This document shows, piece after piece, positions 13-19,630 of a DNA stretch of 64,000 nucleotides; the stretch's first letter is position 1; the number at the start of each line of letters is the position of its first letter. Both the position numbers and the translations under genes were made by a program. The stretch lies in NCBI GenBank assembly GCA_024231855.1, contig JAAEQD010000159.1:1-64000 (forward strand), in the 5' to 3' direction. The DNA is from Candidatus Zixiibacteriota bacterium. GTDB lineage: Bacteria > Zixibacteria > MSB-5A5 > UBA10806 > 4484-95. The notes under the pieces were generated by a model. That model was not told the origin of the DNA and did no database searches. It saw only the letters and a program-made list of their open reading frames with translations.

Positions 13-3000
13 ATGATGGAGTATATGACTCTCTGCGCCGATCCGACGCTATTCGAGTTAGACTCTAACACTCATCGACACCCCGCACCGAACGGGGTCC
101 CCATGGGCATTGTGACTTTGCCTGATTTTGTGGTCGATGTAGCCGTGAATGAGGTTGAGACTTCCATACCGGGCAACAGGGGCTCTATCGATCCATTAGA
201 CGTGGGTGGGCGAGCGGGTAGACTGGCATGGGTGCTCCAGGAATTCGGCGGACTGCGGAACGGCTGGTACAATATAAAATACATTGCCAAGGCGGGAGAC
301 GTTGGCCGAATCGTGCTCGAACGGCGATTCACCAAGAGAAACAACTATGCCGGTTTTGAAGCGATTTCATTACGGCACATTATCCCTTCCAATCAAGACT
401 ATGACTGGATTCACATCTACGGTAAAATGAAGAAACCTGTTGAATCGTCACATGACGGCCTCGATGTGAAGATTGAGGATATTGACAAATCCTCCTTTTC
501 CCTGACGGACCTTTTCATCGACTCGCGGTACATTGTCATCTCCAGCAAGCATGCTGATCACGCAATTAGCGCTATCTCTCTTGTGGGAGAAGGACTCGAC
601 AGGCTCTCCGGAATGCTCCCTACGCAAATTCACGGAAAGCTCCCTATTGGCATCTTACTCGATCTCAGCGCACTGGGGAACTGCGACCACATTCCTGGTG
701 TCATTGCTTCATTCGCAAAAGTAAAGGAGCGTGCATCCGCGTTTGTGATTGATTCCACGGCGTTGTGCGCGCAAGAACTTGACTCCGGTAAGGAACACTT
801 TGAGCACGTTCTGGTTCGTGAGAATGAGATTGTCCGATTGGGCGATTCTGAATACCCACTTTCGGCGAGCGGGCCGACAGTGCGTGAAGCGTTCACGGCG
901 GGCTACACTCTGGCGACTGCCTGTGACTTGGGCTGGAAACTCCTTCGCCGTTGGTATGATTACTTCCCGAAGATTCGTCCGATCGACGGAAGTCCCCACA
1001 AATCATATCCACAAGAGGAGAAAGGGGAGCCAGGGCAATTGGCGGACGATGGTGATTTGCTGCCGAGCCTGGACATTAACGGTGGTGATCCGATTAGCCC
1101 GGCAGACAGAGTGCGGTTTGCCGCGTTGTTGGCTGAGGCCACGGAATCGACTCCCTTATGCTATAGTGATTTGGTCAAGACAGTGACGCCGAAAGACACA
1201 CAGCTTCTTACGCCTATTGAGAAACTGGAGGTGAAGTATGCCACCAGTCAGCAAGATGCACCCAAAGACCAGATGAATGACTGCGAGAAAAAAGCGTCAA
1301 TGGAGCTAGTGTTAAAAAAGAGATTTCAGGATCCAGAGTCGGAAGATACTCTTTCTCTTCATGCGCCGCCATCGAAGCTCGATAGTTTCGTTTCATCTTG
1401 CCGACTGAGGGACGCTCGGCGTGTAGTCGAAAGCCCAAAATCAGAAATCGACAAGGCGGTCATGTTTGACCTTGATGCAACGCTTATTGATTCCAGCAAA
1501 ATGATACGGGCTTGTTGGAAGATAGGACTTCGCACTTTCTTCAACGAGGTTGGAATCCGGGCGGAGGACGATGAAATCAAGACCATTATCGACGTTTATC
1601 AGACGTTCATCTATAAGAACTACGAGCGTTTCCACTTGCTTCTAAGAGATCAACCCGACATTCCTCCCGAATTACAGCCGTGTGATTTCAGACAAGTGTG
1701 GAACCATCCATATGCGTGGGCGGCATTACTTTTGGTACTCAACCTGGACTCAACCTCTCCAGAAATCGATAGGTCTCAGCACAAGCAGTGGCGAGACGCC
1801 CTCGATAAGCACAAGCAGTGGCTAGACGTCCTTGATAAGTACAATCAGTGGCGTGAAGCCTTGGATAAGTACAAGAAAGAGCAGGAAACATCTGCCGGAG
1901 ACCAAGACTCGTCCTCCGAAAATCCGAATGATCCGTGGCTAGACGTCCTCGATAAGTACAATCAGTGGCGAGAAGCCTTGGATAAGTACAAGAAAGAGCA
2001 GGAAGTATCTGCCGGAGCCAAAGACTCGTCCTCCGAAAAGCCGAACGAGCAGTCGCGAGACGTCCTCGATAAGCACAATAAAGAGCAGGAAGCATCTGCC
2101 GCAGCCAAAGATACGTCCGCCGAAAAGCCGAACGAGAAGTGCGATTGCGATATTTGTAGCCAATTGGAACCAATGCTGCGTGAAAACTCCAAAGACACTA
2201 AAGATGGCGAGAAACGTAAGAATCGTAAAAAACCTGTGAATCTTGAAGATGTTCGTCGCCTCGCTACACGGAACCTTCGCGAGCAACTGACCCATTTCCG
2301 GTTTGCGATTCGCGAGGGACGGAACGCTTTTTGGAATGTGGATTATCCCTCTTACCCACAAGTGCGGTCTTGTGTCGAGATGCTCCGCGCAATGCCAGGA
2401 TGCGAAGTGTACGTCGTCACCGAAGGCCATGAAGAGACACAACTAATGAAGCTCAAGTGTACCGGTCTGGACGACCTGTTTCCTGCCGGTAGGGTACTAA
2501 GTACGGGTGCGGCAAGCGCAGCGAAGGAAGTCAGGAACGATCTTACAAAGCTAATCCAACAGGACAAGCACACGAGGGACTTCCTCCTCCGCGAGGTCAA
2601 TGAGGTCAATGTGGATGAGTTCAAACGCTTGACCGAGACGCTCAACGCGATCAAAGACGCCGTTGACCTTCTTCACCAGCTCCTTGAACTTCTGTATTTG
2701 AAGGCTAATAAGAGGTTCTATTCCGCCGTTATCGATTCTATCCGCCTCAAACCTGAGTCGCCTGCTCAAGTATTGCAGTCACTCCTTGAGAGAGGTAGGC
2801 ATGCTATTGAGTACTTTGAGAAGATCAAGGATAAGATCAGTGAAGGGCGCCCCATCAAATTCTTCATGATCGGGGATCGTTACGACAATGACTGTGAGCC
2901 GTTGCTCAAGATATTTCCTTCGGCTGATCAAGAAGTAGGCGTGGGCACATGTCGGCTCATGAGCGGAAAACGTTCGTGGGAGGAATATCCACCGGAGAAG

Positions 3001-3774
3001 AAACCCGCTGAGCCTGGTATAACTACCGAGGTTCGGAAGCCTACAATGTACGTGTGTGATACACTGGCGCAGGTCGCGCACATTATGCACAGCGCCGAAG
3101 CGTGGCGCCGAATAATCCCCTTGAAAGCTGTATCACCTCCAGCCCTCCTTGAGGTGAACGATGATGAAATAGTCTATGGCCCTACAAAGGAGGGCAAACT
3201 AAAGGGCTTAGCGCCGCAGTTTGCCAATCTCGCCTTGGCGATCCAGCATGAGGCTCTGAGGAAAGAACCGGCTGTTCATGAGATGCTTGGGCAGATCCAG
3301 CGGGATATCGCTGTGTGTGACGCAACGAGCATAGCGCGATTATTTCAAGATTTAAGGGAGCAGGTCGAAGCAGGGTGGCAACTGCCAAAGCAGAGCGATC
3401 CCGCGCTGGTTCCTGAGGAAGTCCTGGAGAAAGGTGCCCTGAAGATTCTCGCCGCTGTCAATTGGTGGAGATGGTTACTGAAGAGGCCGCTTCTACCGAG
3501 GGCCGATGATATCACAACGACACTGGAGTGGACACTAAGTTCTCAGCTTTTGGCTTACTACGACATCCAATCCGTCACTATTGGAGACAATAGAATGAGC
3601 CAAACTAGACCAGAGCAAGAGGACATCAAGGACAGTGAAATTCTAGAAGCTATTCCCTATTCCTTCGACGGCATTGAAATTATCAAAACGATCGGGGTTG
3701 CGCCGAGCCTTGGGATCGACCACCGAAAAAACCTAACGGATTGGATCGTTAAGTCAGATCGGCTAACTCGATAA
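13..3774 (+). CDS. Large multidomain protein: N-terminal PfkB/ribokinase-like region (divergent) plus HAD-superfamily phosphatase with a long repeat-bearing insertion
   Basis: ORF 1253 aa. HAD motif I VMFDLDATLIDSS and motif IV region KFFMIGDRYDNDCEPL. N-terminal DVGGRAGRLAWVLQEFGG...IKYIAKAGDVG and ...SGPTVREAFTAGYTLATACDLGW resemble PfkB motifs. The frame is open to the window edge, so the true start could lie upstream. Confidence 0.6.
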   Translation: MMEYMTLCADPTLFELDSNTHRHPAPNGVPMGIVTLPDFVVDVAVNEVETSIPGNRGSIDPLDVGGRAGRLAWVLQEFGGLRNGWYNIKYIAKAGDVGRIVLERRFTKRNNYAGFEAISLRHIIPSNQDYDWIHIYGKMKKPVESSHDGLDVKIEDIDKSSFSLTDLFIDSRYIVISSKHADHAISAISLVGEGLDRLSGMLPTQIHGKLPIGILLDLSALGNCDHIPGVIASFAKVKERASAFVIDSTALCAQELDSGKEHFEHVLVRENEIVRLGDSEYPLSASGPTVREAFTAGYTLATACDLGWKLLRRWYDYFPKIRPIDGSPHKSYPQEEKGEPGQLADDGDLLPSLDINGGDPISPADRVRFAALLAEATESTPLCYSDLVKTVTPKDTQLLTPIEKLEVKYATSQQDAPKDQMNDCEKKASMELVLKKRFQDPESEDTLSLHAPPSKLDSFVSSCRLRDARRVVESPKSEIDKAVMFDLDATLIDSSKMIRACWKIGLRTFFNEVGIRAEDDEIKTIIDVYQTFIYKNYERFHLLLRDQPDIPPELQPCDFRQVWNHPYAWAALLLVLNLDSTSPEIDRSQHKQWRDALDKHKQWLDVLDKYNQWREALDKYKKEQETSAGDQDSSSENPNDPWLDVLDKYNQWREALDKYKKEQEVSAGAKDSSSEKPNEQSRDVLDKHNKEQEASAAAKDTSAEKPNEKCDCDICSQLEPMLRENSKDTKDGEKRKNRKKPVNLEDVRRLATRNLREQLTHFRFAIREGRNAFWNVDYPSYPQVRSCVEMLRAMPGCEVYVVTEGHEETQLMKLKCTGLDDLFPAGRVLSTGAASAAKEVRNDLTKLIQQDKHTRDFLLREVNEVNVDEFKRLTETLNAIKDAVDLLHQLLELLYLKANKRFYSAVIDSIRLKPESPAQVLQSLLERGRHAIEYFEKIKDKISEGRPIKFFMIGDRYDNDCEPLLKIFPSADQEVGVGTCRLMSGKRSWEEYPPEKKPAEPGITTEVRKPTMYVCDTLAQVAHIMHSAEAWRRIIPLKAVSPPALLEVNDDEIVYGPTKEGKLKGLAPQFANLALAIQHEALRKEPAVHEMLGQIQRDIAVCDATSIARLFQDLREQVEAGWQLPKQSDPALVPEEVLEKGALKILAAVNWWRWLLKRPLLPRADDITTTLEWTLSSQLLAYYDIQSVTIGDNRMSQTRPEQEDIKDSEILEAIPYSFDGIEIIKTIGVAPSLGIDHRKNLTDWIVKSDRLTR
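1819..2130 (+). repeat. In-frame tandem repeat, ~117 bp (39 aa) unit, inside the HAD insertion
   Basis: tggctagacgtcctYgataagtacaatcagtggcgWgaagccttggataagtacaagaaagagcagga starts at 1819 and again at 1936; a partial third copy starts near 2050. Confidence 0.85.
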
Positions 3775-3822: not shown

Positions 3823-6800
3823 ATGAAAGCAGAATCATACGTGACACAAGACGAACTTGTAGACGCTCTTGATAGTGATGGCAAACCGTTGCCCCATCCC
3901 GTTTCCCGGTCGTACGCTCATCGGCACGGGATCTGGCATCGTTCAATCTCAGTCTTCGTGCTCAATCGTTACGGTGAAGCCCTGATCGAACGCAGAAGCA
4001 AAAATAAGGACTTGTTTCCCGGCTTCTATGATATCGTCGGTGGCCACGTGCATCCTGAACAGACGCCTTTAGAGACGGCTTGTCGAGAGGTTTATGAAGA
4101 ACTGAACCTTAAAGTTTCTCGCAAACGGTTCGAACTTCTTGCGCCGGTAGATAGCGTGATCGAGCGCGTCGTACTGCCCGATCAGTCGATTGTCAATCTG
4201 GAACGAAAGACGATTTATCTGCTTCGCCTGACCTTGGATGAGGAATCCGCGGTAGCACGACTTGCGGCGGAGTTGCTACGCCTGACTCCTGAAGAACTTG
4301 AGGAACGTGGCACATCGGGTGAGGTTTCGCAACTTGAGTTGTGGCCCTGGGAGCGCCTGTTCGATGCGTCGCGCCTGAGTCAAAATCATCGCATGGCCAG
4401 TGGAACCTTGTCTGCTCTGAGCGACGATCGGGTTCGGGAACAGGTTGCCGTCTGTTGCTTGTCGCTTCGCAACGACCGCCGAGAGGAATTTGTGGAACAC
4501 TACGCATTCCTCAAAGAAGGAAATGGCGATGATGACGGCTTCGACCAGAGCCTATTCGATCGGTTTCTACCGCGTCCGACATCCCCGGCGCCAATTGAAG
4601 AAGTGAACGCTGTTTTCAAGAATGGACCGGAACAGTTGGCAGGTGCTTACGAGTTGGGACGATTTAGCCAAACCGCATCGGGTGATGACCATTGGGGTCC
4701 AAAGCTCCGAGATCCGGAGACACGGTATGTACGCAGTCTTCTTACGGCTATCGGCTGCGGTAGAAAGGCAGGCGTTCGACAGGAGTTGGACCGAATTTCC
4801 ACCCAAGTCCAGTCATTCGTAAGCGACTTGCTGAATCTCCCGTTGTCAGACGGAAACCGCTTCCGGGATAAATTGGGCAACCTGGCGCATATCGCCGCCG
4901 CGCGAAGGGCAGTGCTTGTCTGGTTAGAGCACGCCGCGCCGGATTTGGCGAAGACTGAGAGTCTCGACCGACCTACTGGGTTAGTGACAGAAGCTTGTTT
5001 ACAGGCCGGTAATGACATCCTGAGACGATTTTTAAGGTCGAATCGTTTGCCGGATTTGGGCCGCTTTCGCGAGCTCGTTTTAGTGGGCCTGCGAGCGTCT
5101 TCCGCAGATTTCAATAATCCGCCGTTTCAGAAGCATTTGAAGGCACCGCCCCCAGACAGCCCACAGATCGAACGCTTCCTCGAGCAAAAAATCCCGCAAG
5201 AGTTTGCGCCGGAGATGGGAGGTGATCAATTTCTCTCGCAATTCTATTCGAAGTTCGTAGAATCCGGCGAGTCAGTCACAATCGCGTACCTTGCCGGTAA
5301 TGCGGCCCAGGCCTCTATCAGCCTCGCAATTGCTCAGGAGATCCTAAGCATCAATGGTAATGCCAAAATACGATTCGTACCCAAGTCAGACTCTCCGGGA
5401 AACGACCTGACATTTGCGGATGCGGAGAGGATACTCGCCGCAGGCGAACACGGGATTTTCTCAGAATTGATCCGTTTCCGCAACGAAGGACGTTTCGCCG
5501 TGGAGCAAGACGGGCCGCTCTGCCATGGACTGGACCCCCGGCGGCTTTCTGCGAGCATCTCGAAGGTTCTTGTCGATGCGCAAGTCATTCTGGCCGAAGG
5601 GCAAGCATATGCTGAGATCTGTGGATGGAAGAAGCCGACATACATTTCATTTCGAGTAAACGGCCGGGTCGCCGAGGCAATCCACGGCATCTCGCGGCAG
5701 CGCGGCGTGTGCGGGTTCGTTGGTTTGACACCCGGTGTCGATCATTTCCAGAACTTCGAGAGTGCGATCTGCCGAAGCATCGTGGACGCGGGCGATAAAC
5801 GCACTTTACGTGTTGCGGCCCAAACGACGGCCGAGTATGTTCGAGCGATTCGGGGAGAAAACCTGGACCTGATCGTGAACCATCTTTTTCAAGGAAACCT
5901 TGTCGAAGCCTGTGAGCACGTCCAAGCTGAAGCCGACCGGCTTGGCAAGAGCTTTGCCCAGATCCTTATTGGGGCGGCATCGGAACCCCCGGACGCCACG
6001 AACGTCGCTCAGCTCTTTCGTAACGTGCGTTTTCCGGTGTTCGCCTGCGGTGGCGGAGGCGGATTCAGCAGCGTGACACTCCGAGCTTTGCGTATGCTAG
6101 GCTTGCCCACGGTCGCGGGCGTCCCCAGTACGGATGACGGAGGTAGTACCGGTGAGCTTCAGCGTTGGCTTGCCAGTGAACGTGGCTTCGTCTTTGGGAT
6201 GGGCGACATGGCGGCAATCATGCAGGACGCTTTGCCCAACCGCGGCAAACAGGCAGTGCTTGCATACCGCTTCGACAGCGAACCCAAATCGCTGGCATTA
6301 GCTACAATTATGAGGATCGTGGCAGAAATCGCGAGTCCTACGTACCCTGATTCTCCAATCGGGTCGGCCGACGATTTCCTGTCGTTTGTCTGTGGTCAGC
6401 TCAATCTTGCCCGCGTTGTTGATGGAAGTTTTCGTGGGGCCGACAGTCTAAGTAAGCTTCCGATTAAAGGTGCGAGCATTCGTAACTTAAACATCATTGC
6501 AGCGTACGAGCTATGCGATTTGTTGGGAGACCGAGGAACAGTTTCCGAGGAATCGCGACTCGCTGCTTTCTATATGCTTCAGGAAGCATTGGGATTGCCA
6601 CCCGATTTACTTGTTGTTCCGGTGACCTATTCTGAATCTGTACTCTACCTCGAATACGAGAATCCGATTCAAAAAGAGCTGGCCGAGGAGTTCGACGTGC
6701 CAGACAAAGCGATCGGGAATAACCAGCGACGTCTATATGGCCAACAATTCATCGACAAGCTACCACAAAGCGGGTCGAGGTCGACCGTCGGCGTGGCCAA

Positions 6801-7644
6801 GTCGCCCAGCAATCTTCACCGTCCGCGTGCCAATCCGGAGTACCTGTCACGCCTGCAAGACGCAGAACTTTTCGTGATGGGCGCCGGATCACTCATCGGT
6901 AGTCAGCTTTCGCAATTAGCGATTCCAGGCGTTGTGGATGTTCTCTTGGAGCGATCAAGCATGCGGCGGATTCTTGTGCTCAATCATGTGAAGATGGACG
7001 AAACTCTTGGCATGTCTCTTCGAGATCAAATCCGACTCATCGAAACGGTTGCCTCCGAGACCGCCTCCAGACATCTGTTTGATAGGTGGGCGGAAACCGA
7101 TGGACGGCTGCGAATTTCCGATCTGTTCACGGACATCGTCGTGCCGCGGACGATAGCTCGGGAACTCGAAGCTGAAATGAAGGCTGAAAAGGTCTCAAAA
7201 GAAGTGACTGAGAATGGTGATCCAAATTATGTATTTTTTCCCACGCCAGGGACCAATCAGACGATACGTGTGTTCTGTAATAGGTACGTGAAGTTCCTCC
7301 TCGATCATCCGAACATTGGCGAGGAATACGGCATTACAAAACGTGAGATAGAGGTGCTTTCCTATCTGGATCAGCCCTCAACTCTCTATAACCGGCGCAG
7401 CGAGGGAGGACGCTATCGCGGCGCCTTATTCGCTACAACGGGCGACATCGATTTTCTCGTGGATCGGGGAATCCAACGTCGCAGCATCCACGAAGTGGAC
7501 TCTATCGGAGAGAATTGGAAGATCGTGAAGGCCGAAGGAGCCCCACGCCTTGAGTTCTTTCCGGGGCTCGTACCGGAGGCATTGGTTGGGATATTCCGCA
7601 TCGCTTTAGAGCGAGCGAGTTCGACTTCGACACCTACTCGATGA
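3823..7644 (+). CDS. Fusion protein: Nudix hydrolase + DUF89/ARMT1-like region + YvcK/CofD-like domain
   Basis: Nudix box GGHVHPEQTPLETACREVYEELNL. Middle region ...GNAAQASISLAIAQEIL...KIRFVPKSDSPGNDLTFADAERIL...DAQVILAEGQAYAEI resembles DUF89. C-terminal FACGGGGGFSSVTLRALRMLGLPTVAGVPSTDDGGSTGELQRWL and FVMGAGSLIGSQLSQLAIPGV resemble YvcK/CofD. Confidence 0.75.
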   Translation: MKAESYVTQDELVDALDSDGKPLPHPVSRSYAHRHGIWHRSISVFVLNRYGEALIERRSKNKDLFPGFYDIVGGHVHPEQTPLETACREVYEELNLKVSRKRFELLAPVDSVIERVVLPDQSIVNLERKTIYLLRLTLDEESAVARLAAELLRLTPEELEERGTSGEVSQLELWPWERLFDASRLSQNHRMASGTLSALSDDRVREQVAVCCLSLRNDRREEFVEHYAFLKEGNGDDDGFDQSLFDRFLPRPTSPAPIEEVNAVFKNGPEQLAGAYELGRFSQTASGDDHWGPKLRDPETRYVRSLLTAIGCGRKAGVRQELDRISTQVQSFVSDLLNLPLSDGNRFRDKLGNLAHIAAARRAVLVWLEHAAPDLAKTESLDRPTGLVTEACLQAGNDILRRFLRSNRLPDLGRFRELVLVGLRASSADFNNPPFQKHLKAPPPDSPQIERFLEQKIPQEFAPEMGGDQFLSQFYSKFVESGESVTIAYLAGNAAQASISLAIAQEILSINGNAKIRFVPKSDSPGNDLTFADAERILAAGEHGIFSELIRFRNEGRFAVEQDGPLCHGLDPRRLSASISKVLVDAQVILAEGQAYAEICGWKKPTYISFRVNGRVAEAIHGISRQRGVCGFVGLTPGVDHFQNFESAICRSIVDAGDKRTLRVAAQTTAEYVRAIRGENLDLIVNHLFQGNLVEACEHVQAEADRLGKSFAQILIGAASEPPDATNVAQLFRNVRFPVFACGGGGGFSSVTLRALRMLGLPTVAGVPSTDDGGSTGELQRWLASERGFVFGMGDMAAIMQDALPNRGKQAVLAYRFDSEPKSLALATIMRIVAEIASPTYPDSPIGSADDFLSFVCGQLNLARVVDGSFRGADSLSKLPIKGASIRNLNIIAAYELCDLLGDRGTVSEESRLAAFYMLQEALGLPPDLLVVPVTYSESVLYLEYENPIQKELAEEFDVPDKAIGNNQRRLYGQQFIDKLPQSGSRSTVGVAKSPSNLHRPRANPEYLSRLQDAELFVMGAGSLIGSQLSQLAIPGVVDVLLERSSMRRILVLNHVKMDETLGMSLRDQIRLIETVASETASRHLFDRWAETDGRLRISDLFTDIVVPRTIARELEAEMKAEKVSKEVTENGDPNYVFFPTPGTNQTIRVFCNRYVKFLLDHPNIGEEYGITKREIEVLSYLDQPSTLYNRRSEGGRYRGALFATTGDIDFLVDRGIQRRSIHEVDSIGENWKIVKAEGAPRLEFFPGLVPEALVGIFRIALERASSTSTPTR

Positions 7645-7670
7645 CCGAGGTTTAAGTCAGTCTTGTTAGT

Positions 7671-7696
7671 ATCCGAAAAACGCTCGTTTTTCGGAT
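7671..7696. repeat. Perfect 12-bp inverted repeat with 2-nt spacer (dyad copy 1)
   Basis: atccgaaaaacg-ct-cgtttttcggat. Confidence 0.9.
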
Positions 7697-7789
7697 GTAA
7701 ACCTTAATAATTAACATTTCAAACGGACGGGATAATCGAACCCCCCGACCCTATTGTTCGCCATAAGTTAATACACGGTGTGACCCAAT

Positions 7790-7950
7790 TGTAACGATTT
7801 ATCACGAATTTATATATTTTATAACTATTTTTCTAGTTTTGTAACCATTTTTCTACATCAGCCGACAATAATGTGGACTGCAGTTTTATAATTATTTTTC
7901 TTGACTTATAGTGAAATATAATAATAATTCTTGCGTTGTAATCATTTTTC
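7790..7950 (+). promoter_or_regulatory. Five degenerate direct repeats TRTAAYNATTTTTC upstream of the fic start codon
   Basis: TGTAACGATTTATC at 7790, TATAACTATTTTTC at 7820, TGTAACCATTTTTC at 7840, TATAATTATTTTTC at 7887, TGTAATCATTTTTC at 7937. Confidence 0.7.
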
Positions 7951-7961
7951 CAGAGGAAGCC

Positions 7962-9482
7962 ATGGTTGATAACAATCAAAATGAATCGATAGACAGACTT
8001 GCAGGATATGCGGCACTTATCGAGCGGTACGATCTTGATGTATTCCCGCACTGGCATAGGTCACGAGTGACAACAAGCGGAGTCCACCGGATAGATTCAA
8101 GCGGAGGTGTGGTCAAGGAAGTATATCCTCCTAAGTACTGGCCAGGAGATACGCTGGGTGATCATCTTGAATTTGCGCTCAAATATGACGGTACGAACCT
8201 CGCAATACTAGCTTGTCTGTTTCAGGAAGTAGCAGAAGAGGATATTCTCGATTATATCCGATCAAAGCCAACTGGCAAGTATGCCCGGCGGCTATGGTTT
8301 CTGTACGAATTCCTGACCGGTAAAACGCTCCCCATACATGACCTAAAGAGAGGTAACTACATCGACCTGCTTGAAATGAATAAATACTATACGGTTACTC
8401 CGATCCGCAGGGTCCAACGTCAGCGGATTAACAATAATTTGCTAGGTGATCAAAGATTCTGCCCGACGATACGCCGCACCGATATCCTTCGTAAATTCGA
8501 AACGGACGACCTGCCTAATCGATGCCGCCAAGTTGTTTCAGCTTATTCCCCGGAATTGCTGAAGCGAGCACTCAGCTATCTTTACACCAAGGAGACTAAA
8601 TCATCATTTGAGATCGAAAACATTAAACCCAGTTCGACACGGACTGAACGCTTCGTGGCGCTACTTCAAATGGCTGAGCGAGAAGACTTCTGCGAGAAAA
8701 AACGATTAATCGAGCTTCAGAATCGCATAGTTGATCCACGGTTTCGCGATTCCGATTATCGCTTTAACCAGAATTATGTCGGGGAGACCATCGCCTTACA
8801 GAAAGAAAAGATACACTTAGCATGTCCAAAGCCCGAAGACCTGGCCGATTTGATGGAAGGGTTGATAGCTGCCCATAAACGTATGGATGCAAGCGACGTA
8901 TCGGCCGTGATTCACGCTACTGCCATCTCCTATGGTTTTGTTTTTTTACACCCGTTTGAGGATGGTAACGGCCGAATCCACCGCTTCCTGATTCACAACA
9001 TTTTTTCCAGAAGAGGTTTTACTCCCAAAGACGTTATGTTTCCTATATCAGCATCCATGCTGAAGAACTCGATTGATTATGATGACTCTCTGGAAGCGTT
9101 CTCCCGGCGGCTTATGCCTCTTGTGGAATACTCTCTTGATGAAGAAGGTCGCATGACGGTTCATAATGATACCGCCAAATGGTACCAGTATATTGATATG
9201 ACGCCTCAAGCGGAAGCGCTTTTCGGATTCATTGTTCATACTATCGATACCGAGCTCTCAAGTGAATTGGCATTCCTTGCTAATTATAATGAAACCAAGA
9301 AGGCTATTCAAGAGATAGCCGACATACCCGATAGGAAAATCGACCTCTTCATTCGATTCTGTTTGCAAAACAATGGGAGATTATCCATACGGAAACGCAA
9401 TAGTCATTTCGATTTTCTTTCCGATGAGGAAATTAGTCGAATGGAACAGGTGGTGTCATCTGCCTACATTGAAAAACCATAG
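7962..9482 (+). CDS. Fic/DOC family protein, class II-like with putative N-terminal inhibitory motif
   Basis: Fic motif HPFEDGNGRIHR; upstream SFEIEN fits [S/T]xxxE[G/N]. The start at 7962 (MVDNNQNE) has a gaggaag RBS; the ORF-track start at 7911 lies within the upstream repeats. Confidence 0.9.
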   Translation: MVDNNQNESIDRLAGYAALIERYDLDVFPHWHRSRVTTSGVHRIDSSGGVVKEVYPPKYWPGDTLGDHLEFALKYDGTNLAILACLFQEVAEEDILDYIRSKPTGKYARRLWFLYEFLTGKTLPIHDLKRGNYIDLLEMNKYYTVTPIRRVQRQRINNNLLGDQRFCPTIRRTDILRKFETDDLPNRCRQVVSAYSPELLKRALSYLYTKETKSSFEIENIKPSSTRTERFVALLQMAEREDFCEKKRLIELQNRIVDPRFRDSDYRFNQNYVGETIALQKEKIHLACPKPEDLADLMEGLIAAHKRMDASDVSAVIHATAISYGFVFLHPFEDGNGRIHRFLIHNIFSRRGFTPKDVMFPISASMLKNSIDYDDSLEAFSRRLMPLVEYSLDEEGRMTVHNDTAKWYQYIDMTPQAEALFGFIVHTIDTELSSELAFLANYNETKKAIQEIADIPDRKIDLFIRFCLQNNGRLSIRKRNSHFDFLSDEEISRMEQVVSSAYIEKP

Positions 9483-9515
9483 TCACCCATTTGAAACAGT
9501 GATTTCTAATGTTAG

Positions 9516-9563
9516 GCTGATATTAATGGCAATTGTCTGGTCATTGGCAGTGATGTGACAAGG
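9516..9563 (+). pseudogene. Fragment of a dockerin-like C-terminal module (remnant)
   Basis: Frame reads ADINGNCLVIGSDVTR, matching (A)D(A/V)NGDCxVIGSD(V/L)T(K/R) in six intact genes of this window. An in-frame stop (TAG, 9513-9515) lies immediately upstream and a GC-stem/T-run hairpin immediately downstream. Confidence 0.8.
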
Positions 9564-9588
9564 GCGATCTTGGTAGGTCGCCTTTTTA
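9561..9588 (+). terminator. Rho-independent terminator-like hairpin
   Basis: ggcga-tcttggtagg-tcgcc followed by ttttt. Confidence 0.6.
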
Positions 9589-9664
9589 ATCGGCATGCTC
9601 TCGTCAAAGTCATCGTCACAATACACTAACTCATTAAAAGACATTTAGATATGTAATTATATAG

Positions 9665-9688
9665 TCCGTAAAACGAATGTTTTTCGGA
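9665..9688. repeat. Imperfect inverted repeat (dyad copy 2)
   Basis: tccgtaaaacgaatgtttttcgga, similar to 7671-7696, and also preceded by TAGT. Confidence 0.7.
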
Positions 9689-9886
9689 AATCTCTTTTGC
9701 ATATGCTTGATTATATAAATATTTAAAGCTGTAAGCAAAATTGAAATAACCAGTCTGTGTACATAGAGGTTATCAATTATATTTGCCTTTTGAGCGGAAA
9801 TTCGTTATTAATATATAATTAGGAGCTATCTATAATGTAATTTGATTGATTTGTCAAACTTGACGTAGAATAAACCAGAATATACA

Positions 9887-12800
9887 ATGATGAAATCTGA
9901 AGATCTCAAGAAAAATATTATTGTAACCGGTCCTATTTTTTCAGAACCAGTCCAGATTATAATGGCAACTTCGTTAGGTGATTCAATCAAACTTGTAGGA
10001 AAAGGGATTCACACCGGTCAAGTTCACGAACCTATCTTAACGAATGACCAAATTGCATTACTTAAAGCTTCCCCTGAACGGGAGCCTTTTGATGGTAATC
10101 CTATACGATTCAAACTTGGTATAGAAGCTTTAAGATTATCCCTTGCTTTCGAATATGATCCTTACTTTTCCCTCTCAATTGCCAGAGTAGATCCGCTTCC
10201 GCACCAGCTAGAAGCTGTTTATGACTATTTTATAAAACTTCCTCGTATCAGATTTCTTCTTGCTGATGATCCTGGTGCTGGGAAAACGATAATGGCTGGA
10301 CTTCTTTTGAAAGAGCTGAAAATCCGCGGATTAGCAAAACGCACTTTAATCGTTTCTCCCGCAAATCTGTGCTTTCAATGGCAACGCGAAATGAAAGATA
10401 AATTTCATGAAACATTTGATGTAATGCGAGGAGAAGTATTACGGGCCGCCTACGGAACAAATCCTTGGCAAGATCGCAATCAGGTGATTACTTCCGTATC
10501 CTGGGTATCGCGCGTTGAAGATGCCAACGAGAGTCTATTACGAAGCCATTGGGATCTTATTATTGTAGATGAAGCGCATAAAATGAGCGCCTATAGCTCT
10601 GAAAAAAAGACACTTGCCTATCGCCTGGGCGAACACCTTTCGACTATGACGGACCACTATTTGATGATGACTGCTACGCCACATAAAGGAGATCCTAAAA
10701 ATTTCTGCTTATTCCTAGAATTATTGGACAAAGATGTTTATGGTGATGTGAGAAGCCTTGAGGACGCCATGGCGCGTAATAGTGCGCCATTTTATCTCAG
10801 GCGTGTTAAAGAGGCGTTGGTTACCTTCCCCTCTCCGGATACAGGTGAAGTTAAGAAACTTTTCACAAAACGTGAGGTTAAGACAGGGGATTTTAAAATT
10901 TCGGATCAAGAATATGACTTTTATGACACATTAACTCGATATGTTGAAGACCAATCAATAAAAGCTTCTTCGGACGATTCTGCGCGTGGACGTGCTCTGG
11001 GTTTCACTATGGCCATGTTACAGCGACGGTTTGCCTCCAGCACCTATGCTGCAAGACGAAGTCTTGAACGTATGAGGGATAAACGCCAGAGAATTCTCGA
11101 TGACCCCGAAGGTTATAGGCAAGAGCAGATTGAGCGTCGCATGCCTGATGATTTTGACGAATTGACCGATGCCGATCAACAGAAAATTGTTGATCAACTC
11201 GAACAAGTTGTTATATCTATTAATCCCCCTCATCTTCGAGATGAAATTATTCAATTAGACAAACTGGTTACTTTGGCAAAAGCCCTGGAGAAAGCAGAAG
11301 TTGAAGCCAAGCTTACAAAATTAAAAGACGTAATCACCACCGAGGGCATATTTAAAGATCCTAAAATGAAACTGCTTGTATTCACCGAGCACAAGGACAC
11401 ACTTGATTATTTGGTAAAAAAACTCGAAGAATGGGATCTTACGGTTACCCAAATACACGGCGGAATGAAGATCGGTGATCGAAACCAACCGGGAACGCGG
11501 CTTTACGCAGAAAGAGCTTTTAGAGATGAAGCCCAGGTTTTAGTAGCCACTGAAGCGGCTGGTGAAGGCATAAACCTTCAATTCTGCTGGTTTATGATTA
11601 ATTATGATATTCCATGGAATCCTGTCAGGCTTGAGCAGCGTATGGGACGTATTCATCGTTATGGTCAGGAGCACGACTGTTTAATTTACAATTTTGTAGC
11701 TTTAAATACTCGAGAAGGTCGTGTTTTAAATAAGCTATTATTTAGATTGAGTGAGATTAGAGATGAACTAGGAACCGATCAGGTTTTCGATGTAGTTGGT
11801 GAGATATTTCCTGCTAATATTTTAGAGCGTATGTTCAGAGAGATGTATGCTAAACGCAGAGACGAAAAATCAATAAATGATAGAATTGTTAAGGATGTTG
11901 ATGCTAATCGTTTTAGATCGATAACGGAATCCACATTGGAGGGGCTGGCTAAGAAACAACTAAATCTCTCGGCGATAATTGGCAAATCAGTTGAAGCCAA
12001 AGAGAGGCGATTAGTTCCCGAAGTTATTGAAGAATTTTTCACTACTGCTTCTGTTGTTTCGGGTATTAAACCAAAAGAGACTCGAAAAGACTCACATATC
12101 TATCGAATTGGCCGCATTCCTCGCAACTTATGGTCTATTGGTGAAAGATTAGAACCTCGTTTTGGAAAATTAGGTCGGGAGTACAAGCAAATCGTATTTA
12201 ATAAATCGATTCTTGCTAAAGATCCAACCTGTGAGTGGGTAACACCTGGGCACCCGTTATTTGAGACTGTCCGTGAGGATGTTGCTGAACGTGTAAGAGC
12301 CGATTTACAGCGAGGAACTGTTTTTTATGATGTTAACCAATCTCAATCTTATCGACTTGATGTATTCTCTGCATCCATAAAAGATGGCCGTGGTCATCCC
12401 CTTAATCGGAGGCTTTTTGTGGTTCAAATTAATGAAGATGGATCATTAGATATCAAACAGCCGACAATTTTCATCGATTTAAATGCCACCAATATGAAAA
12501 CAGAACCGCCTGCTATTGATGGTTTGCCGGGCCGAGAATTGGCGGAAAGATTCCTTGTTGAACAAGCGTTAAATCCGTTCTTGGTTGAAGTATCAAAGGA
12601 GCGTGCCCGAGAGACTGATATGATTGCCCGCCATATTGAAATCAGTCTGAATGAATTGATTAAACGGCAAAACTTAAAGATGGCAGAGCTTTTAGAATTG
12701 CAGCAAAAAGGTGACACATCACAGCCGCTAGCTGCGAATATTAAGCAGGTTGAAGACCGCATAGATGAGCTTAATGGCAGACTTGAAAGACGTCGCAATG

Positions 12801-13297
12801 AGCTAAAAATGGAAAGCCAGTGCCTGATTGGAGATATTCAATTTATCGGTAGAGCCTGGGTATTACCGCATCCTGAACGTTCCGCCCCCGATGTATCTCC
12901 GATGGTTAAGAATGATGAAATTGAAAAGATAGCGGTTGATGCTGTAATAGCCTATGAAAAGAAACAGGGGCGTATTTGTGAGAGCGTTGAAGATCAAAAC
13001 CGGGGCTTTGATCTAATATCACGCAAGCCGCACCCGGAAGATCCAAAGACGGCTATTGAAGTTAGGTTTATCGAAGTTAAGGGGCGTTCTGAGATAGGAG
13101 AAATTGCGCTAACGCCAAATGAATACAAAACTGCTGAAAGACTAAGACGTGATTTTTGGCTATATGTAGTATTTAATTGTTCTAATAATCCAGCGGTTAA
13201 TGTTGTGAATGATCCTGTCCGGCTAGGGTGGAAACCTCTGGTAAAAGTTGAACACTATCATGTTAATTCAAGCAAAATTATCAAGGCCGCAGAATGA
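9887..13297 (+). CDS. SNF2/DEAD-like helicase with C-terminal DUF3883 (DrmD-like / Hma helicase)
   Basis: Walker A LADDPGAGKTIMAGLLLKEL, DEAH box IIVDEAHKMS, helicase C motif ATEAAGEGINLQFCWFMINYDIPWNPVRLEQRMGRIHRYGQ, DUF3883-like C-terminus NRGFDLISRKPHPED...RFIEVKGRS. Confidence 0.9.
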   Translation: MMKSEDLKKNIIVTGPIFSEPVQIIMATSLGDSIKLVGKGIHTGQVHEPILTNDQIALLKASPEREPFDGNPIRFKLGIEALRLSLAFEYDPYFSLSIARVDPLPHQLEAVYDYFIKLPRIRFLLADDPGAGKTIMAGLLLKELKIRGLAKRTLIVSPANLCFQWQREMKDKFHETFDVMRGEVLRAAYGTNPWQDRNQVITSVSWVSRVEDANESLLRSHWDLIIVDEAHKMSAYSSEKKTLAYRLGEHLSTMTDHYLMMTATPHKGDPKNFCLFLELLDKDVYGDVRSLEDAMARNSAPFYLRRVKEALVTFPSPDTGEVKKLFTKREVKTGDFKISDQEYDFYDTLTRYVEDQSIKASSDDSARGRALGFTMAMLQRRFASSTYAARRSLERMRDKRQRILDDPEGYRQEQIERRMPDDFDELTDADQQKIVDQLEQVVISINPPHLRDEIIQLDKLVTLAKALEKAEVEAKLTKLKDVITTEGIFKDPKMKLLVFTEHKDTLDYLVKKLEEWDLTVTQIHGGMKIGDRNQPGTRLYAERAFRDEAQVLVATEAAGEGINLQFCWFMINYDIPWNPVRLEQRMGRIHRYGQEHDCLIYNFVALNTREGRVLNKLLFRLSEIRDELGTDQVFDVVGEIFPANILERMFREMYAKRRDEKSINDRIVKDVDANRFRSITESTLEGLAKKQLNLSAIIGKSVEAKERRLVPEVIEEFFTTASVVSGIKPKETRKDSHIYRIGRIPRNLWSIGERLEPRFGKLGREYKQIVFNKSILAKDPTCEWVTPGHPLFETVREDVAERVRADLQRGTVFYDVNQSQSYRLDVFSASIKDGRGHPLNRRLFVVQINEDGSLDIKQPTIFIDLNATNMKTEPPAIDGLPGRELAERFLVEQALNPFLVEVSKERARETDMIARHIEISLNELIKRQNLKMAELLELQQKGDTSQPLAANIKQVEDRIDELNGRLERRRNELKMESQCLIGDIQFIGRAWVLPHPERSAPDVSPMVKNDEIEKIAVDAVIAYEKKQGRICESVEDQNRGFDLISRKPHPEDPKTAIEVRFIEVKGRSEIGEIALTPNEYKTAERLRRDFWLYVVFNCSNNPAVNVVNDPVRLGWKPLVKVEHYHVNSSKIIKAAE

Positions 13298-13626
13298 GCA
13301 AATGGTCTGATTGGAAGCGCTTTCCCGATCCCAGGAAGGGCGATTATATTTGTGTTCCATATGGACCTGGAGTATATGAACTACGGCATATTGGCAATGG
13401 CCAAAGAATACTTTTTGGAGAAGGAAGTTGTGTTGCATATAGAATGTCTTCTTTGTTGTCGAAACCATTAGGCTGTGGCACTAGAAATAATTATAAAAAG
13501 AGAGAATACGTTCTAAAAAATATCAATGACGTCGAATTTCGCACCTGTGCGTGCAAGAATAGAAATTCAGCAAAAGAGTTGCAACGTGAAATTAAAACAA
13601 AATGGAAATATGTTTTTAGGACTTAG
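13294..13626 (+). CDS. Small GIY-YIG-like protein (putative nuclease)
   Basis: 110 aa; PGVYEL...RILFGEGSCVAYRMSSLL...GTRNNYKKREYV...EFRTCACKNRNSAKELQREI pattern. Start overlaps the helicase stop by 4 nt (ATGA). Confidence 0.55.
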   Translation: MSKWSDWKRFPDPRKGDYICVPYGPGVYELRHIGNGQRILFGEGSCVAYRMSSLLSKPLGCGTRNNYKKREYVLKNINDVEFRTCACKNRNSAKELQREIKTKWKYVFRT

Positions 13627-13632
13627 TTTAAT

Positions 13633-16600
13633 ATGAAAACCCATAGATATTGCAAACGCCTAATAGAAGTTGATTTACCCATTAAACGTATTTCGGAACA
13701 TGCTCGACGAGAGAAATCCATAAGGCATGGGCATATATCCACGCTTCATCTTTGGTGGGCAAGGCGACCTCTTGCCGCTTGTCGTGCTGTTATTTGTGCT
13801 TCTTTATGGCCTGACCCTGCCGATGATTTATGTCCTATAGTATTTAGGAAAGCCGCAAAGAATGAGATGATGGTTTGGGGAAGAGATAGTTTAAAGTTAA
13901 TGAGCGACGAAAGTTATAAATTCTTTAGATCCAAATTAGACAATCCATGTTGTTTCGATGATCCTATCAACCTAAGAAAAGCTTTGTTGCATTTTATAGC
14001 AGATTATTCAAATTGGGATCATACAAACAACTCTAAATTCAATTCAACATCCAACCGTTTGACGAAAGCAGCTTATCAAACTGAAGGCACTATTAAGTAT
14101 TCCCGTCCACTAGTAGTAGATCCGTTTGCGGGTGGTGGGGCGATCCCTCTTGAAAGCTTGCGTGTTGGAGCTGATGCTTATGCATCTGACTTAAACCCTG
14201 TAGCCGTTTTGATAAATAAGGTTTTACTCGAGTACATACCACAATATGGGACCAAACTTTCAACGGCCGTAAAAGAATGGGGATTATGGATTAACAAACA
14301 AGCATCAAAAAGATTATCAGTATATTACCCCCCGACAGGTAAAGATTTAACACCACTTGCATATATATGGGCTAGAACAATAATATCAGAATCACCAAGC
14401 GAAAAAAATATTCCAATTGAAATACCGCTCATTTCATCGATGTGGTTATCAAAAAAACCTCATCGAAAACGTGCGCTACGTTGGGTCCTGAATAAAGGCG
14501 GAAGAGTTGCAACGAAAATACTTTATAAAAAATATGCAAATGGCATTAATATGCAAATTCAACAACCTCTTCTTGAAGTATTTGAGCCCAAAAATATATC
14601 GGATGTGCCAAATGGCAACGTCGCACGCGGATCTGCTACATGTCCGGTTACAGGATATACAGTTCCAGTTAAGAATGTGAGAATTCAATTGGAAAAAAGA
14701 AAGGGTGGGGCATCAGACGCTAGAATGATTTGCACGGTAAGTGTTTCCAAAATCAGAAAAGGTAGAACATATTGTATTCCAACCAATGACGATCTGGAAA
14801 CGTCAGAAATGGCTAATGTTCATTTCAATAACATTGGAGTGAAAAGTGAAGAGAATTCCAATTTTCCAAATGAACCTACACCACCTAGAAATAGTCATAG
14901 AGCAGTAAGCAGCTTTCCAATTTATGGAATGAATAAGTTCATTGATCTTTTTACGCCTCGCCAGGCTCTAGTTCTTAAAACGTTTACCGAATTAATTAAG
15001 GAAGCCGGAAATAATATTGAAGCTCAATCTAATAAAGAATTTGCTTTTGCGACACAGAGTTGTCTCGCGCTCTTGATTGGAAAGATAGCCGACTATTGTT
15101 CTAGTCTGACCCCTTGGGCGTCTCCAGCTACACAAGAAACGGTTAGAAATACTTTCGGCCGTCAGGCATTAGCAATGGTGTGGGATTTCGCCGAAGCAAA
15201 TATTTTTGCAAAAAGTTCTGGGGGATGGTGCCATGCACTTGAATATATTTCACGTGCAATAGAGCACACAGCGAAAGGTATTAATTCTCAAGGTACGGCA
15301 AATATAGAAGATGCGTGTCAATTAAGTTTACCAGATAACATTGCAGCTGCCTTAATAACAGATCCTCCTTATTACGATTCGATTCCGTATGCGGAATTAT
15401 CGGATTATTTTTATGTTTGGCTGAAACGTGCAATACCGGACTGTCATGCGTCTTTGTTCAAGGATGTACTCACCCCCAAGAAAGAGCAAATTATTGTCTG
15501 GCACCCAAATGCAGTTGATGAAAAAGACAGGTTTCAAGACTTAATGAAAAGAGCATTGTCAAATGGCCGCAGGATTTTGAATAATAATGGTATAGGCATT
15601 GTTGTTTTTGCCCATAAATCTACATCAGGTTGGGAAAGTCAATTAAGGGCCTTGATTGAATCAGATTGGATTATTACCGCATCATGGCCAATAGATACTG
15701 AGAGATCTGGCCGTATCAATGCAAAAAACACGGCTTCGCTGGCATCATCTGTCCATTTAATTTGCCGACCCCGCGAGAATACTCGCGGCACCAAACTTGC
15801 AGCTGACATAGGTGATTGGCGTGATCTACTAACAGAACTTCCTGAGAGAATTCATGAATGGATGCCTCGCCTTGCGGGGGAAGGGGTAGTAGGCGCTGAT
15901 GCTATCTTTGCTTGCCTAGGTCCGGCATTGGAAATCTATTCCCGTTATTCTTCGGTGGAGAGAGCCAGCGGGGAAGAAGTGAGCTTGAGCGAATATCTTG
16001 AAGAAGTCTGGGCGACTGTTTCGCGTGAAGCCTTGAACATGATATTTGAAGGTGCTGATTCCTCCGGTTTTGAAGAGGATGCCCGACTAACTGCCATGTG
16101 GCTTTGGACAATCTCAACAGGAGTAAACGGACAAACCAATGAAGAGGATAAACCTATAAGTAGTTTAGGATATACACTAGAATTTGATGCTGCACGAAAA
16201 ATCGCTCAGGGTTTAGGCGTACACCTAGAAAGATTGATGAATCTCGTCGAAATCCAAGGAGATAAAGCAAGGTTAATACCTGTATCTGAAAGATCAAAAT
16301 ACCTATTCGGAAAAGAAGGAACGGAATCGTCGCAACGAAAACGCAAAAAGAAAGACCCTCAGATAGGTTTGGGATTCCTGGCGGAACTAGAGGAATCTGA
16401 AGAGCAGGCCAAGATTAAAGGATCATTCTCGGTCAACCTGGGTAAGACGGTGCTTGACCAACTTCATCAATGTATGCTTTTATTTGCTGCTGGTAGAAGT
16501 GAGGCATTGAAGCGGCTGATTGTCGAAGAGGGCGTCGGTAGAGATCAAAGATTTTGGAAATTAGCACAATCATTATCAGCACTTTACCCAAAAAATGTAG

Positions 16601-16656
16601 ATGAAAAGCGTTGGGTGGATGGCGTATTAGCAAAAAAGAAGAGTTTTGGATTTTAG
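13633..16656 (+). CDS. DUF1156 domain-containing DNA (adenine-specific) methyltransferase
   Basis: N-terminal RLIEVDLPIKRISEHARREKSIRHGHISTLHLWWARRPLAACRAV; SAM motif VDPFAGGGAIPLESLRVGADAYASDLNPVAV; catalytic TDPPYYDSIPYAELSDYFYVWLKR. Confidence 0.9.
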   Translation: MKTHRYCKRLIEVDLPIKRISEHARREKSIRHGHISTLHLWWARRPLAACRAVICASLWPDPADDLCPIVFRKAAKNEMMVWGRDSLKLMSDESYKFFRSKLDNPCCFDDPINLRKALLHFIADYSNWDHTNNSKFNSTSNRLTKAAYQTEGTIKYSRPLVVDPFAGGGAIPLESLRVGADAYASDLNPVAVLINKVLLEYIPQYGTKLSTAVKEWGLWINKQASKRLSVYYPPTGKDLTPLAYIWARTIISESPSEKNIPIEIPLISSMWLSKKPHRKRALRWVLNKGGRVATKILYKKYANGINMQIQQPLLEVFEPKNISDVPNGNVARGSATCPVTGYTVPVKNVRIQLEKRKGGASDARMICTVSVSKIRKGRTYCIPTNDDLETSEMANVHFNNIGVKSEENSNFPNEPTPPRNSHRAVSSFPIYGMNKFIDLFTPRQALVLKTFTELIKEAGNNIEAQSNKEFAFATQSCLALLIGKIADYCSSLTPWASPATQETVRNTFGRQALAMVWDFAEANIFAKSSGGWCHALEYISRAIEHTAKGINSQGTANIEDACQLSLPDNIAAALITDPPYYDSIPYAELSDYFYVWLKRAIPDCHASLFKDVLTPKKEQIIVWHPNAVDEKDRFQDLMKRALSNGRRILNNNGIGIVVFAHKSTSGWESQLRALIESDWIITASWPIDTERSGRINAKNTASLASSVHLICRPRENTRGTKLAADIGDWRDLLTELPERIHEWMPRLAGEGVVGADAIFACLGPALEIYSRYSSVERASGEEVSLSEYLEEVWATVSREALNMIFEGADSSGFEEDARLTAMWLWTISTGVNGQTNEEDKPISSLGYTLEFDAARKIAQGLGVHLERLMNLVEIQGDKARLIPVSERSKYLFGKEGTESSQRKRKKKDPQIGLGFLAELEESEEQAKIKGSFSVNLGKTVLDQLHQCMLLFAAGRSEALKRLIVEEGVGRDQRFWKLAQSLSALYPKNVDEKRWVDGVLAKKKSFGF

Positions 16657-16693
16657 CGTTTATTTATGATAGTATGATTTGGGGAGAAAACAT

Positions 16694-19630
16694 ATGGTAC
16701 TGAAACCCTGGTATAAGGTCGTTACTCCAAGAGAAGACCTCCGTGAAGGAAAACCATTAGATGCATCTGAGTTTGCCGTTCACCTAGACCAGGTTCGCAA
16801 TGGTCGGGCAAACAAGGACTATCAAGATCCTGAGCGGTTTTTTGAAAGAACATATCTAACCCAAAATTTAAAGAGCTTATCTGCTGAAGTTATTAGAAGA
16901 TTATCAGGTGAAAAAACCGAGACTTCTGCCGTATTCAACATGGCCACTCAGTTCGGCGGGGGTAAGACTCATGCCTTAACCCTTCTATATCATTTAGCGC
17001 AAAATGGTAAAAAAGCTTCTGCCTGGCGAGGAGTAAAATCGGTACAGCAGCGGGCCAAGATTAAGGAAATACCTAAAGCCAATACAGCAACATTTGTAGG
17101 TACAGAATTTGATTCAATAACCGGCCGCGGCGGAGATGATGGTACACCGCTTAGAAAAACACCGTGGGGCGAGATAGCATTTCAGCTTGGTGGCAAAGAA
17201 GCATTTAAAGTCATTGAGCAACATGATAAAGAAATGACAGCGCCTTCCGGTGAGGTTATTCGAAAATTTTTACCAAAGAACAAACCCAGTTTAATTCTAA
17301 TCGATGAGCTTATGAATTACATAAGCCGGACGAGAAAAATGGGTATGGCAGCACAGACGTATAATTTCCTCCAAAACCTGTCAGAAGAATCCCGCGCCCA
17401 GGATAATGTAGTATTAGTTGTATCTGTACCCGCTTCCGAGATGGAGATGAATTCGGAACAGCAATCTGAGTATGACAGAATTAAGAAACTTTTGGATAGG
17501 TTAGGCAAAGCAGTTATAATGTCCGCCGAACAAGAAACTTCTGAAATCATTCGCCGACGTTTATTTGAATGGGGTGGTTTACCGGATGATGCTAGAAAAA
17601 TAATAAGTGAATACAATAACTGGTTTATTGAGTACCGGCAATCTTTGCCAAACTGGTTCCCCATCGATAATGCCAAAGATTATATAATGGCAACCTACCC
17701 GTTTCATCCGACAGCTATTTCTGTATTTGAGCGTAAGTGGGCTGCGTTACCGCGGTTTCAGCGTACTAGAGGTGTACTCCGATTGTTGGCGCTATGGGTT
17801 TCCAGGGCTTGGGAAGAAGGTTATAAAGGAAATCACAAAGATACTCTTATTGGCTTAGGAACTGCACCCCTTGATGACCCGCTATTTCGAGCCGCTGCTT
17901 TTGAACAACTTGGAGAAAGTCGACTGGAGGGAGCTGTAACAACTGATATTTGCGGCAAGAAAGATTCAAATGCAATCCGACTCGATAAAGAAGCAATTGA
18001 TGCGATTAAGAAATCCAGATTACATAGGAAGGTAGCGACAACTATATTTTTTGAGTCAAATGGAGGTCAATCTCAAGGATATACTACACTGCCAGAAATA
18101 CGCTTGTCAGTAGCAGAACCGGATTTAGATATTGCAAATGTAGAGACTGTTCTGGATGCTTTGGTTCCACCTGACGGTGCTTGTTATTTTATGGATTCGG
18201 CCAAAAACAGGTATTGGTTCAGCGTTAAGCCTAATCTTAACAAATTATTATCAGATCGTAGAGCTAGTGTTCAAGCACCTCAAATAGAAGAATTAATTAA
18301 GACCGAAATTCAGACTGTTTTTGTTACAAAAAAGGATATAAATAGGATTTTCATTCCCGAAAAAAGCAATCAAATTGCTGATCGCCCAGCTTTGACGTTA
18401 GTAATATTAGCGCCTGAAATATCGATGAAGGATTCAGTAGCCACCACGAAATTAGTGGAAACGTTTACTAGAGAGCATGGCACTTCGTCTAGAACATTTA
18501 AGAACTCACTAATTTGGTGTATACCTGAAAATCCGGATATATTATATGATGCCGCTAGGAAAATGCTCGCGTGGGAAGCAATTGAAGACGAGAAAGATGA
18601 TCTGAAATTAGACGACAGCCAGAAACGGCAACTTACCGAGAATCTTAAGAAAGCTAAACGCGATATCAAGGAAGCCGTTTGGAGAACTTACAATAATCTG
18701 ATGATATTAAGTAAGGGTAATTCAATTCGGCATTTACCCCTTGGCCTCGTCCACTCAAGTGCTGCCGAATCTTTAGTGGAATTCATAATCGATTCATTAA
18801 AGAAAGAAGATGAGGTTACTGACTATATCCAACCTCGTAAATTAATAACAAACTGGCCGCCTGCATTTAAAGAATGGGGTACAAAACAAGTTAGGGATGC
18901 GGTCTATGCTTCTCCGCAGTTTTCTAGATTGCTAGATCCTGATTCAATTAGGGAAACAATTGCGAGAGGTGTAAGCGGTGGTATGATGGCATATGTGGCT
19001 AAATCATCAGATGGGCGATATGAGCCATTTGTTTTTGATGAAGCTATATCTGCTTCAGAAATCGAAATCTCTGATGATGTTTTTATAATTTCTGCGGAAG
19101 AAGCGAAAAAACATATTGAACCACCTAAACTATCATCAGTTATAATTTCGCCGCAGAATGTAAATATTCAACCTGGACATAAACAAACGTTTACATTAAA
19201 AGGCATAGACCAAAACGGAATTGATATAACAATGAAGAAAGTAAACTGGTCAGCATCTGGTGGTGAGATTGATGAAAATGGTTTGTTTTCATGTAGCGAA
19301 GAAGGAAGTTATATAGTAAAGGCAATAGTGGAAGGCGTTGAGGGAAATACAAATGCAATAGTTACCAGACCGGGTGCAGCAACACCATTGCCTAAGCCAA
19401 CGGAACTACCTAAAGTAATCAAGTCAGTAAGTTGGAAAGGAGAAGTTCCTTCGCAAAAATGGATGAATTTTTATACCAAAGTATTGTCAAAACACGCAGG
19501 GAAAAACAAATTATCTATCGAAATCGCAGTAAACATATTATCAGAAAGAGGATTTCCTGGGCAGGAAATAAATGAAATCAAGACAGCATTAAGAGAATTG
19601 GGACTTTTAGAAGATATTAATATGGAATAA
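16694..19630 (+). CDS. DUF499 domain-containing ATPase with a C-terminal Ig-like (BIG_2-like) domain
   Basis: Walker A region NMATQFGGGKTHALTLLYHL, Walker B LILIDELMNYIS; C-terminal VIISPQNVNIQPGHKQTFTLKGIDQNGIDITMKKVNWSASGGEIDENGLFSCSEEGSYIVKA. ATG at 16694 has a ggggag RBS. Confidence 0.85.
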   Translation: MVLKPWYKVVTPREDLREGKPLDASEFAVHLDQVRNGRANKDYQDPERFFERTYLTQNLKSLSAEVIRRLSGEKTETSAVFNMATQFGGGKTHALTLLYHLAQNGKKASAWRGVKSVQQRAKIKEIPKANTATFVGTEFDSITGRGGDDGTPLRKTPWGEIAFQLGGKEAFKVIEQHDKEMTAPSGEVIRKFLPKNKPSLILIDELMNYISRTRKMGMAAQTYNFLQNLSEESRAQDNVVLVVSVPASEMEMNSEQQSEYDRIKKLLDRLGKAVIMSAEQETSEIIRRRLFEWGGLPDDARKIISEYNNWFIEYRQSLPNWFPIDNAKDYIMATYPFHPTAISVFERKWAALPRFQRTRGVLRLLALWVSRAWEEGYKGNHKDTLIGLGTAPLDDPLFRAAAFEQLGESRLEGAVTTDICGKKDSNAIRLDKEAIDAIKKSRLHRKVATTIFFESNGGQSQGYTTLPEIRLSVAEPDLDIANVETVLDALVPPDGACYFMDSAKNRYWFSVKPNLNKLLSDRRASVQAPQIEELIKTEIQTVFVTKKDINRIFIPEKSNQIADRPALTLVILAPEISMKDSVATTKLVETFTREHGTSSRTFKNSLIWCIPENPDILYDAARKMLAWEAIEDEKDDLKLDDSQKRQLTENLKKAKRDIKEAVWRTYNNLMILSKGNSIRHLPLGLVHSSAAESLVEFIIDSLKKEDEVTDYIQPRKLITNWPPAFKEWGTKQVRDAVYASPQFSRLLDPDSIRETIARGVSGGMMAYVAKSSDGRYEPFVFDEAISASEIEISDDVFIISAEEAKKHIEPPKLSSVIISPQNVNIQPGHKQTFTLKGIDQNGIDITMKKVNWSASGGEIDENGLFSCSEEGSYIVKAIVEGVEGNTNAIVTRPGAATPLPKPTELPKVIKSVSWKGEVPSQKWMNFYTKVLSKHAGKNKLSIEIAVNILSERGFPGQEINEIKTALRELGLLEDINME

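Follow-up and report, generated by a model that had tools for sequence, protein, structure and literature searches.

What is the short sequence that separates two defence modules in the 64,000-nucleotide stretch of DNA analysed here (the window), and how did it come to lie there? Upstream of it stands a fic gene and downstream an Hma system. In between, a frame of 16 codons reading ADINGNCLVIGSDVTR is preceded by stops and followed by a hairpin (Table 1). The initial annotation took these codons for the second loop of the dockerin-like module that ends six intact genes at 27-63 kb, and saw in them the trace of a secreted-protein gene that was deleted or replaced as the island took shape. The reading we favour, with a probability of roughly 0.8, is that the stretch is a relic and not a working element, namely a piece of a dead host dockerin-like gene that was fused behind fic by deletion or recombination.

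Table 1. Positions of the relic, its neighbours and the intact modules in the window
Feature	Position	Strand	Remark
First dyad, TCCGAAAAACG-CT-CGTTTTTCGGA	7672-7695	+	upstream of fic
fic gene	7962-9482	+	PADLOC PDC-S24; likely ATG start at 7962
Junction stretch	9468-9499	+	neither fic-relative nor, above chance, dockerin (shuffle comparison)
Decayed dockerin-like module fragment, loop 2 region	9500-9563	+	nhmmer, 115 intact modules; BLAST 83% over 59 bp
TAA TGT TAG, two nonsense codons	9507-9515	+	each a single base change away from a frequent intact codon (TAY Tyr, TCG Ser)
16-codon core, ADINGNCLVIGSDVTR	9516-9563	+	sole residue change against nearest paralogue: D->N
Terminator-like hairpin, GGGCGATCT-TGGT-AGGTCGCCT and T-run	9562-9588	+	starts where dockerin homology stops
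Second dyad, TCCGTAAAACGAATGTTTTTCGGA	9665-9688	+	the genome has no close copy of the first dyad besides this one
HmaA	9887-13297	+	PADLOC E 9e-195
110-aa ORF		+	between HmaA and HmaB
HmaB	13633-16656	+	PADLOC E 7e-123
HmaC	16679-19630	+	PADLOC E 7e-130
Intact dockerin-like module, example	26850-27149	-	profile match
Intact dockerin-like module	37555-37854	-	
Intact dockerin-like module	46030-46329	-	
Intact dockerin-like module	55948-56247	+	
Intact dockerin-like module	56572-56871	-	
Intact dockerin-like module	62390-62695	+	

Identity, limits and decay of the fragment

The six module-ending genes are present in the window as described, and their shared module is 100 residues long with two similar loops. 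When a protein profile of the six modules was run against all six frames of the 64-kb window with filters off, the relic scored 19.6 bits and the next match outside a module 4.4 bits. At the nucleotide level, nhmmer with 115 intact modules as the model gave 37.2 bits for 9500-9563 (E 6e-12 for bases 1-20,600; E 1.5e-10 when 489 kb of the source genome's own DNA were searched). When 7645-9886 was compared with the whole genome by BLAST, the matches were the segment itself and dockerin genes only, the latter covering up to 9504-9562 with 83% identity over 59 bp (E 1.7e-9). The core matches 12-13 of 16 residues of loop 2 in the six window modules (13 for the gene at 26796-30764), and the paralogue closest to it over the 16 codons, L039, shares 15/16 amino acids and 41/48 nucleotides. 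At such E values, and with 19.6 bits standing against 4.4, a chance match of 16 residues, a concern raised by the initial annotation itself, is a negligible explanation. Sequence comparison thus confirms that 9500-9563 derives from loop 2 of a C-terminal dockerin-like module with two loops and has since decayed. As a pseudogene remnant it is ordinary, and it has no evident function.

The extent of the fragment had to be redrawn. An in-frame TAG does precede the 16 codons (9513-9515), and the homology begins upstream of it, at 9500 rather than at 9516, and runs to 9563; homology to fic stops at 9467. An upstream extension into the junction stretch, where AGTCACCCA resembles AGTCAGCCATGT, was rejected with a best score of 18 against a shuffle mean of 18.3, as was an extension past the hairpin through TTGGTAGG (LVG codons), which did not score above shuffles. 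With the 115-module model, bases 1-20,600 contain no second significant dockerin piece, and no stranded 5' half of the module.

Read in frame, the relic is F*C*ADINGNCLVIGSDVTR. Three stops fall in this frame, TGA at 9492-9494, TAA at 9507-9509 and the TAG already mentioned, and intact copies carry Tyr and Ser at the last two. Against L058, the best paralogue over 20 codons, 11 codons differ, comprising eight synonymous, one missense and two nonsense changes (TAT->TAA and TCG->TAG). The missense change, GAT->AAT, hits an Asp that is invariant in 115 of 115 intact copies. This combination of mostly synonymous changes with nonsense codons and the loss of an invariant residue indicates a gene that was once under purifying selection and is now dead. 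The relic is thus disabled by TAA and TAG and by the lost Asp, and both ends of the module are missing. The core has changed at a single residue and the few codons upstream hold two stops; with numbers this tiny, the milder decay of the core could hint at recombination or constraint.

These changes also bear on the reliability of the contig. In a metagenome-type bin with 8.5% contamination, two contigs might have been joined at a dockerin repeat, and the conserved loop, present about 140 times in the genome, is the kind of repeat that misleads assemblers. However, the nonsense and D->N changes of the relic are absent from every intact copy and unique sequence lies on both of its sides, and we consider an assembly chimera very improbable.

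The module itself is restricted to the lineage. Profile matches in the whole genome number 163, well over 100 of them full-length, whereas only two of the 146 genomes searched contain it, the source genome and one genome of the same family. BLAST of 7645-9886 against relatives found one dockerin gene, also in a same-family genome (G002), and one fic gene. The copies, well over 100 in a genome of 5.4 Mb, share a conserved tail, DY.P.W..P...P.GWPNC. We name the module 'dockerin-like' only, since it stays below the Pfam cut-off: neither Pfam nor NCBIfam recognises it at their cut-offs, and with Dockerin_1 (PF00404) the best intact window module reaches 13.9 bits against a gathering threshold of 22.9, two others having no Dockerin_1 match. 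In the literature searched, no paper names both Zixibacteria and dockerin. A structural model of the module from six sequences is of low confidence (pLDDT 43.6) and places helices at 19-31 and 57-69, after the loops.

Flanking modules and the origin of the relic

The gene upstream of the relic, fic, is an anti-phage-type gene. Its relatives, 84%, 76% and 74% identical, all lie in genomes of another family (f9), and homology to them ends at or before 9467 in every case (SAY|IEKP*), so that the last four fic codons and the stop are private to the window. No dockerin piece occurs at any of the relatives' fic loci. In one relative (G066, L102 1288-3326) the fic unit is flanked by a tRNA-Pro on one side and a 23-bp repeat of that tRNA's 3' end on the other, at a spacing of 1965 bp; in a second (G045, L104 1202-3396) the flanks are 107-bp direct repeats at a spacing of 2088 bp; and in the third (G069, L103 about 3640-3720) a tRNA-Met T-arm-like piece is found upstream of fic. 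Judging from these sequences, the fic unit of the relatives looks like a small mobile unit of about 2 kb without an integrase of its own. On the 3' side of the window's fic there is neither a tRNA end nor a direct repeat of the relatives' kind; that side adjoins the relic.

Two similar 24-bp dyads flank the fic segment of the window, 1993 bp apart. Were the dyads at 7672 and 9665 the ends of a unit, the relic could be a scrap that the fic unit took up and moved along, as its place inside the dyad-bracketed 2-kb segment would allow; the dyad spacing can also be set beside the repeat spacings of 1965 bp (G066) and 2088 bp (G045). Yet the dyads differ from the relatives' tRNA-end or gene repeats in being palindromic, they give no sign of recombining, and the relatives' fic units are without the scrap, which makes a passenger origin unlikely. 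Two further features lie upstream of fic. Direct repeats of the type GTAAC(C/T)ATTTTTC, at 7820-7853 and 7887-7950, keep their position in G066, G069 and G045 and are probably operator sites of fic regulation. On the minus strand, 7722-7748 resembles the T-arm of a decayed tRNA (GGGGGTTCGATTATCCC); its reading as an old attachment site or tRNA 3'-end remnant is only suggestive, with 8 of 300 shuffles scoring as well.

Downstream of the relic, the helicase HmaA, the methylase HmaB and the ATPase HmaC are adjacent and in order over 9887-19630 (PADLOC). At the cut-off applied to the 146 genomes, the nearest relative of HmaA is 37% identical and belongs to another part of the tree. On the far side of fic, 3823-7644 encodes a 1273-aa fusion of NUDIX, ARMT1-like and CofD-like parts that has no relative at E 1e-60 in the 146 genomes, and its neighbour at 13-3774 encodes a HAD-containing protein with charged repeats.

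The hairpin joins the relic directly, as first described, and has the form of an intrinsic terminator, with a GC-rich stem and then a T-run. Its fold has an energy of -21.4 kcal/mol (z -3.2). Searching directly for stems gives one of 7-9 bp before the T-run, in which five T were found rather than the six reported. A promoter/terminator pattern scanner did not include 9562-9588 among the terminators it listed. The form of the sequence suggests that the hairpin most likely ends the fic transcript. A claimed resemblance to the hairpins after intact dockerin genes did not hold up, and a dockerin-type terminator was rejected, the mean alignment score being 12.8 after dockerin genes and 12.5 after other ORFs. 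T-run hairpins follow 22 of 114 dockerin genes and 6 of 101 other ORFs, a set that includes spurious frames. The adjoining T-run hairpin, and the fact that the relic continues in fic's frame after the fic stop, could be taken to mean that the stretch now serves fic or hma as a 3'UTR or regulatory element. With several in-frame stops, no Rfam match, and fic genes in relatives that do without the relic, we see little room for such a function.

Taken together, a module found in 2 of 146 genomes, a fic of another family's affinity (84-74%) and an HmaA with 37% identity to its nearest relative place the relic as host-lineage DNA between two foreign-affinity modules. To this extent the initial annotation's interpretation is supported; the argument it drew from the hairpin falls with the alignment scores. 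In the reading that we prefer, a gene of the host family with a two-loop dockerin-like tag would have been broken by deletion or illegitimate recombination, and the break, whose far end would be where the hairpin now stands, would have joined the last codons of a horizontally acquired fic to an internal point of loop 2. The 64 bp left over, no longer translated, would then have gained nonsense and missense changes and would persist as a 3' untranslated stretch of fic, with the hairpin probably serving as its transcription terminator. Against this reading, the junctions of the relic carry no diagnostic repeat, and no syntenic genome with an intact ancestor was found.

The deletion, and its place in time with respect to the arrival of fic and Hma, are inferred; as to timing, one special case deserves attention, in which an intact dockerin-tagged gene at the site was replaced by the defence island and the relic marks an old host boundary. 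The position of a host-lineage relic between a fic of other-family affinity and an Hma without close relative fits such a replacement, which we regard as possible and put forward tentatively. Against it, an internal 64-bp piece alone remains, with no 5' half upstream, and the neighbouring genes tested have no syntenic counterpart in relatives (58-146 genomes searched), none of which was found to share the flanks. Moreover, the fic units of two relatives adjoin a tRNA 3'-end repeat and not a dockerin gene, which makes a later deletion fusing fic to a dockerin gene at least as likely as replacement.

Other remnants in the genome

Remnants of the module are rare in the genome and not unique to this locus. 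In the genome stretches searched, which set a lower bound on the count, decayed module tails lie at about 71584-71791 of C178 (L063), which has a TAG and starts inside loop 2; at about 67027-67126 of the same contig, starting just after loop 2; and at about 15737-15890 of C37 (L065), which starts within loop 2, some 170 bp behind an intact module. The tails on C178 and C37 adjoin intact dockerin-like genes. Among 100 loop-2 sites listed, as judged by comparing two lists, all but three lie in intact modules. The exceptions are the relic, C178:71597 and C47:43146, the last being a two-loop region of another kind within a long reading frame. With at least three other decayed tails, such remnants look like the product of ordinary turnover in a family with well over 100 copies.

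The breaks of the relic (9563), C178:71584 and C37:15737 fall within loop 2 or at its end, and C178:67027 begins just after it. That loop 2 of the tag family is a recurrent genomic breakpoint nevertheless seems improbable to us; the clustering is suggestive only, since the search best detects pieces that keep loop 2. If true, the tag would act as a hotspot of recombination, reshuffling genes for secreted proteins and allowing foreign modules to settle among them.

The relic provides direct evidence of the piecewise assembly of a defence island in this lineage, with lineage-specific DNA sandwiched between an other-family-related fic unit and an Hma system that lacks close relatives. The relic also illustrates that debris from a large, repeated C-terminal tag stays recognisable. 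Apart from this evidence, it is routine genome decay, ordinary in kind.

Comparison with known systems

Loop 2 of the module aligns weakly with positions 2-23 of Dockerin_1 (type I, PF00404), and five of seven weak PDB matches, the best at E 0.15, are dockerin or GH9-dockerin chains aligned in register. Unlike type I dockerins, the module has an atypical loop 1 (NM..G.WPP.VIGGDVT) and the extra conserved C-terminal tail. Hma is a candidate defence system of the PADLOC authors (PMC8565338); the window agrees with it in having HmaA, HmaB and HmaC, in this order and on the same strand, downstream of the relic, but the relic is only a neighbour of Hma and no part of the system. As in bacterial pseudogene remnants, the relic combines nonsense and missense decay with truncation on both sides, and has intact paralogues in the genome. 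It differs from them in being very short (64 bp) and in lying directly after the stop codon of a foreign-affinity gene, with a defence module on either side.
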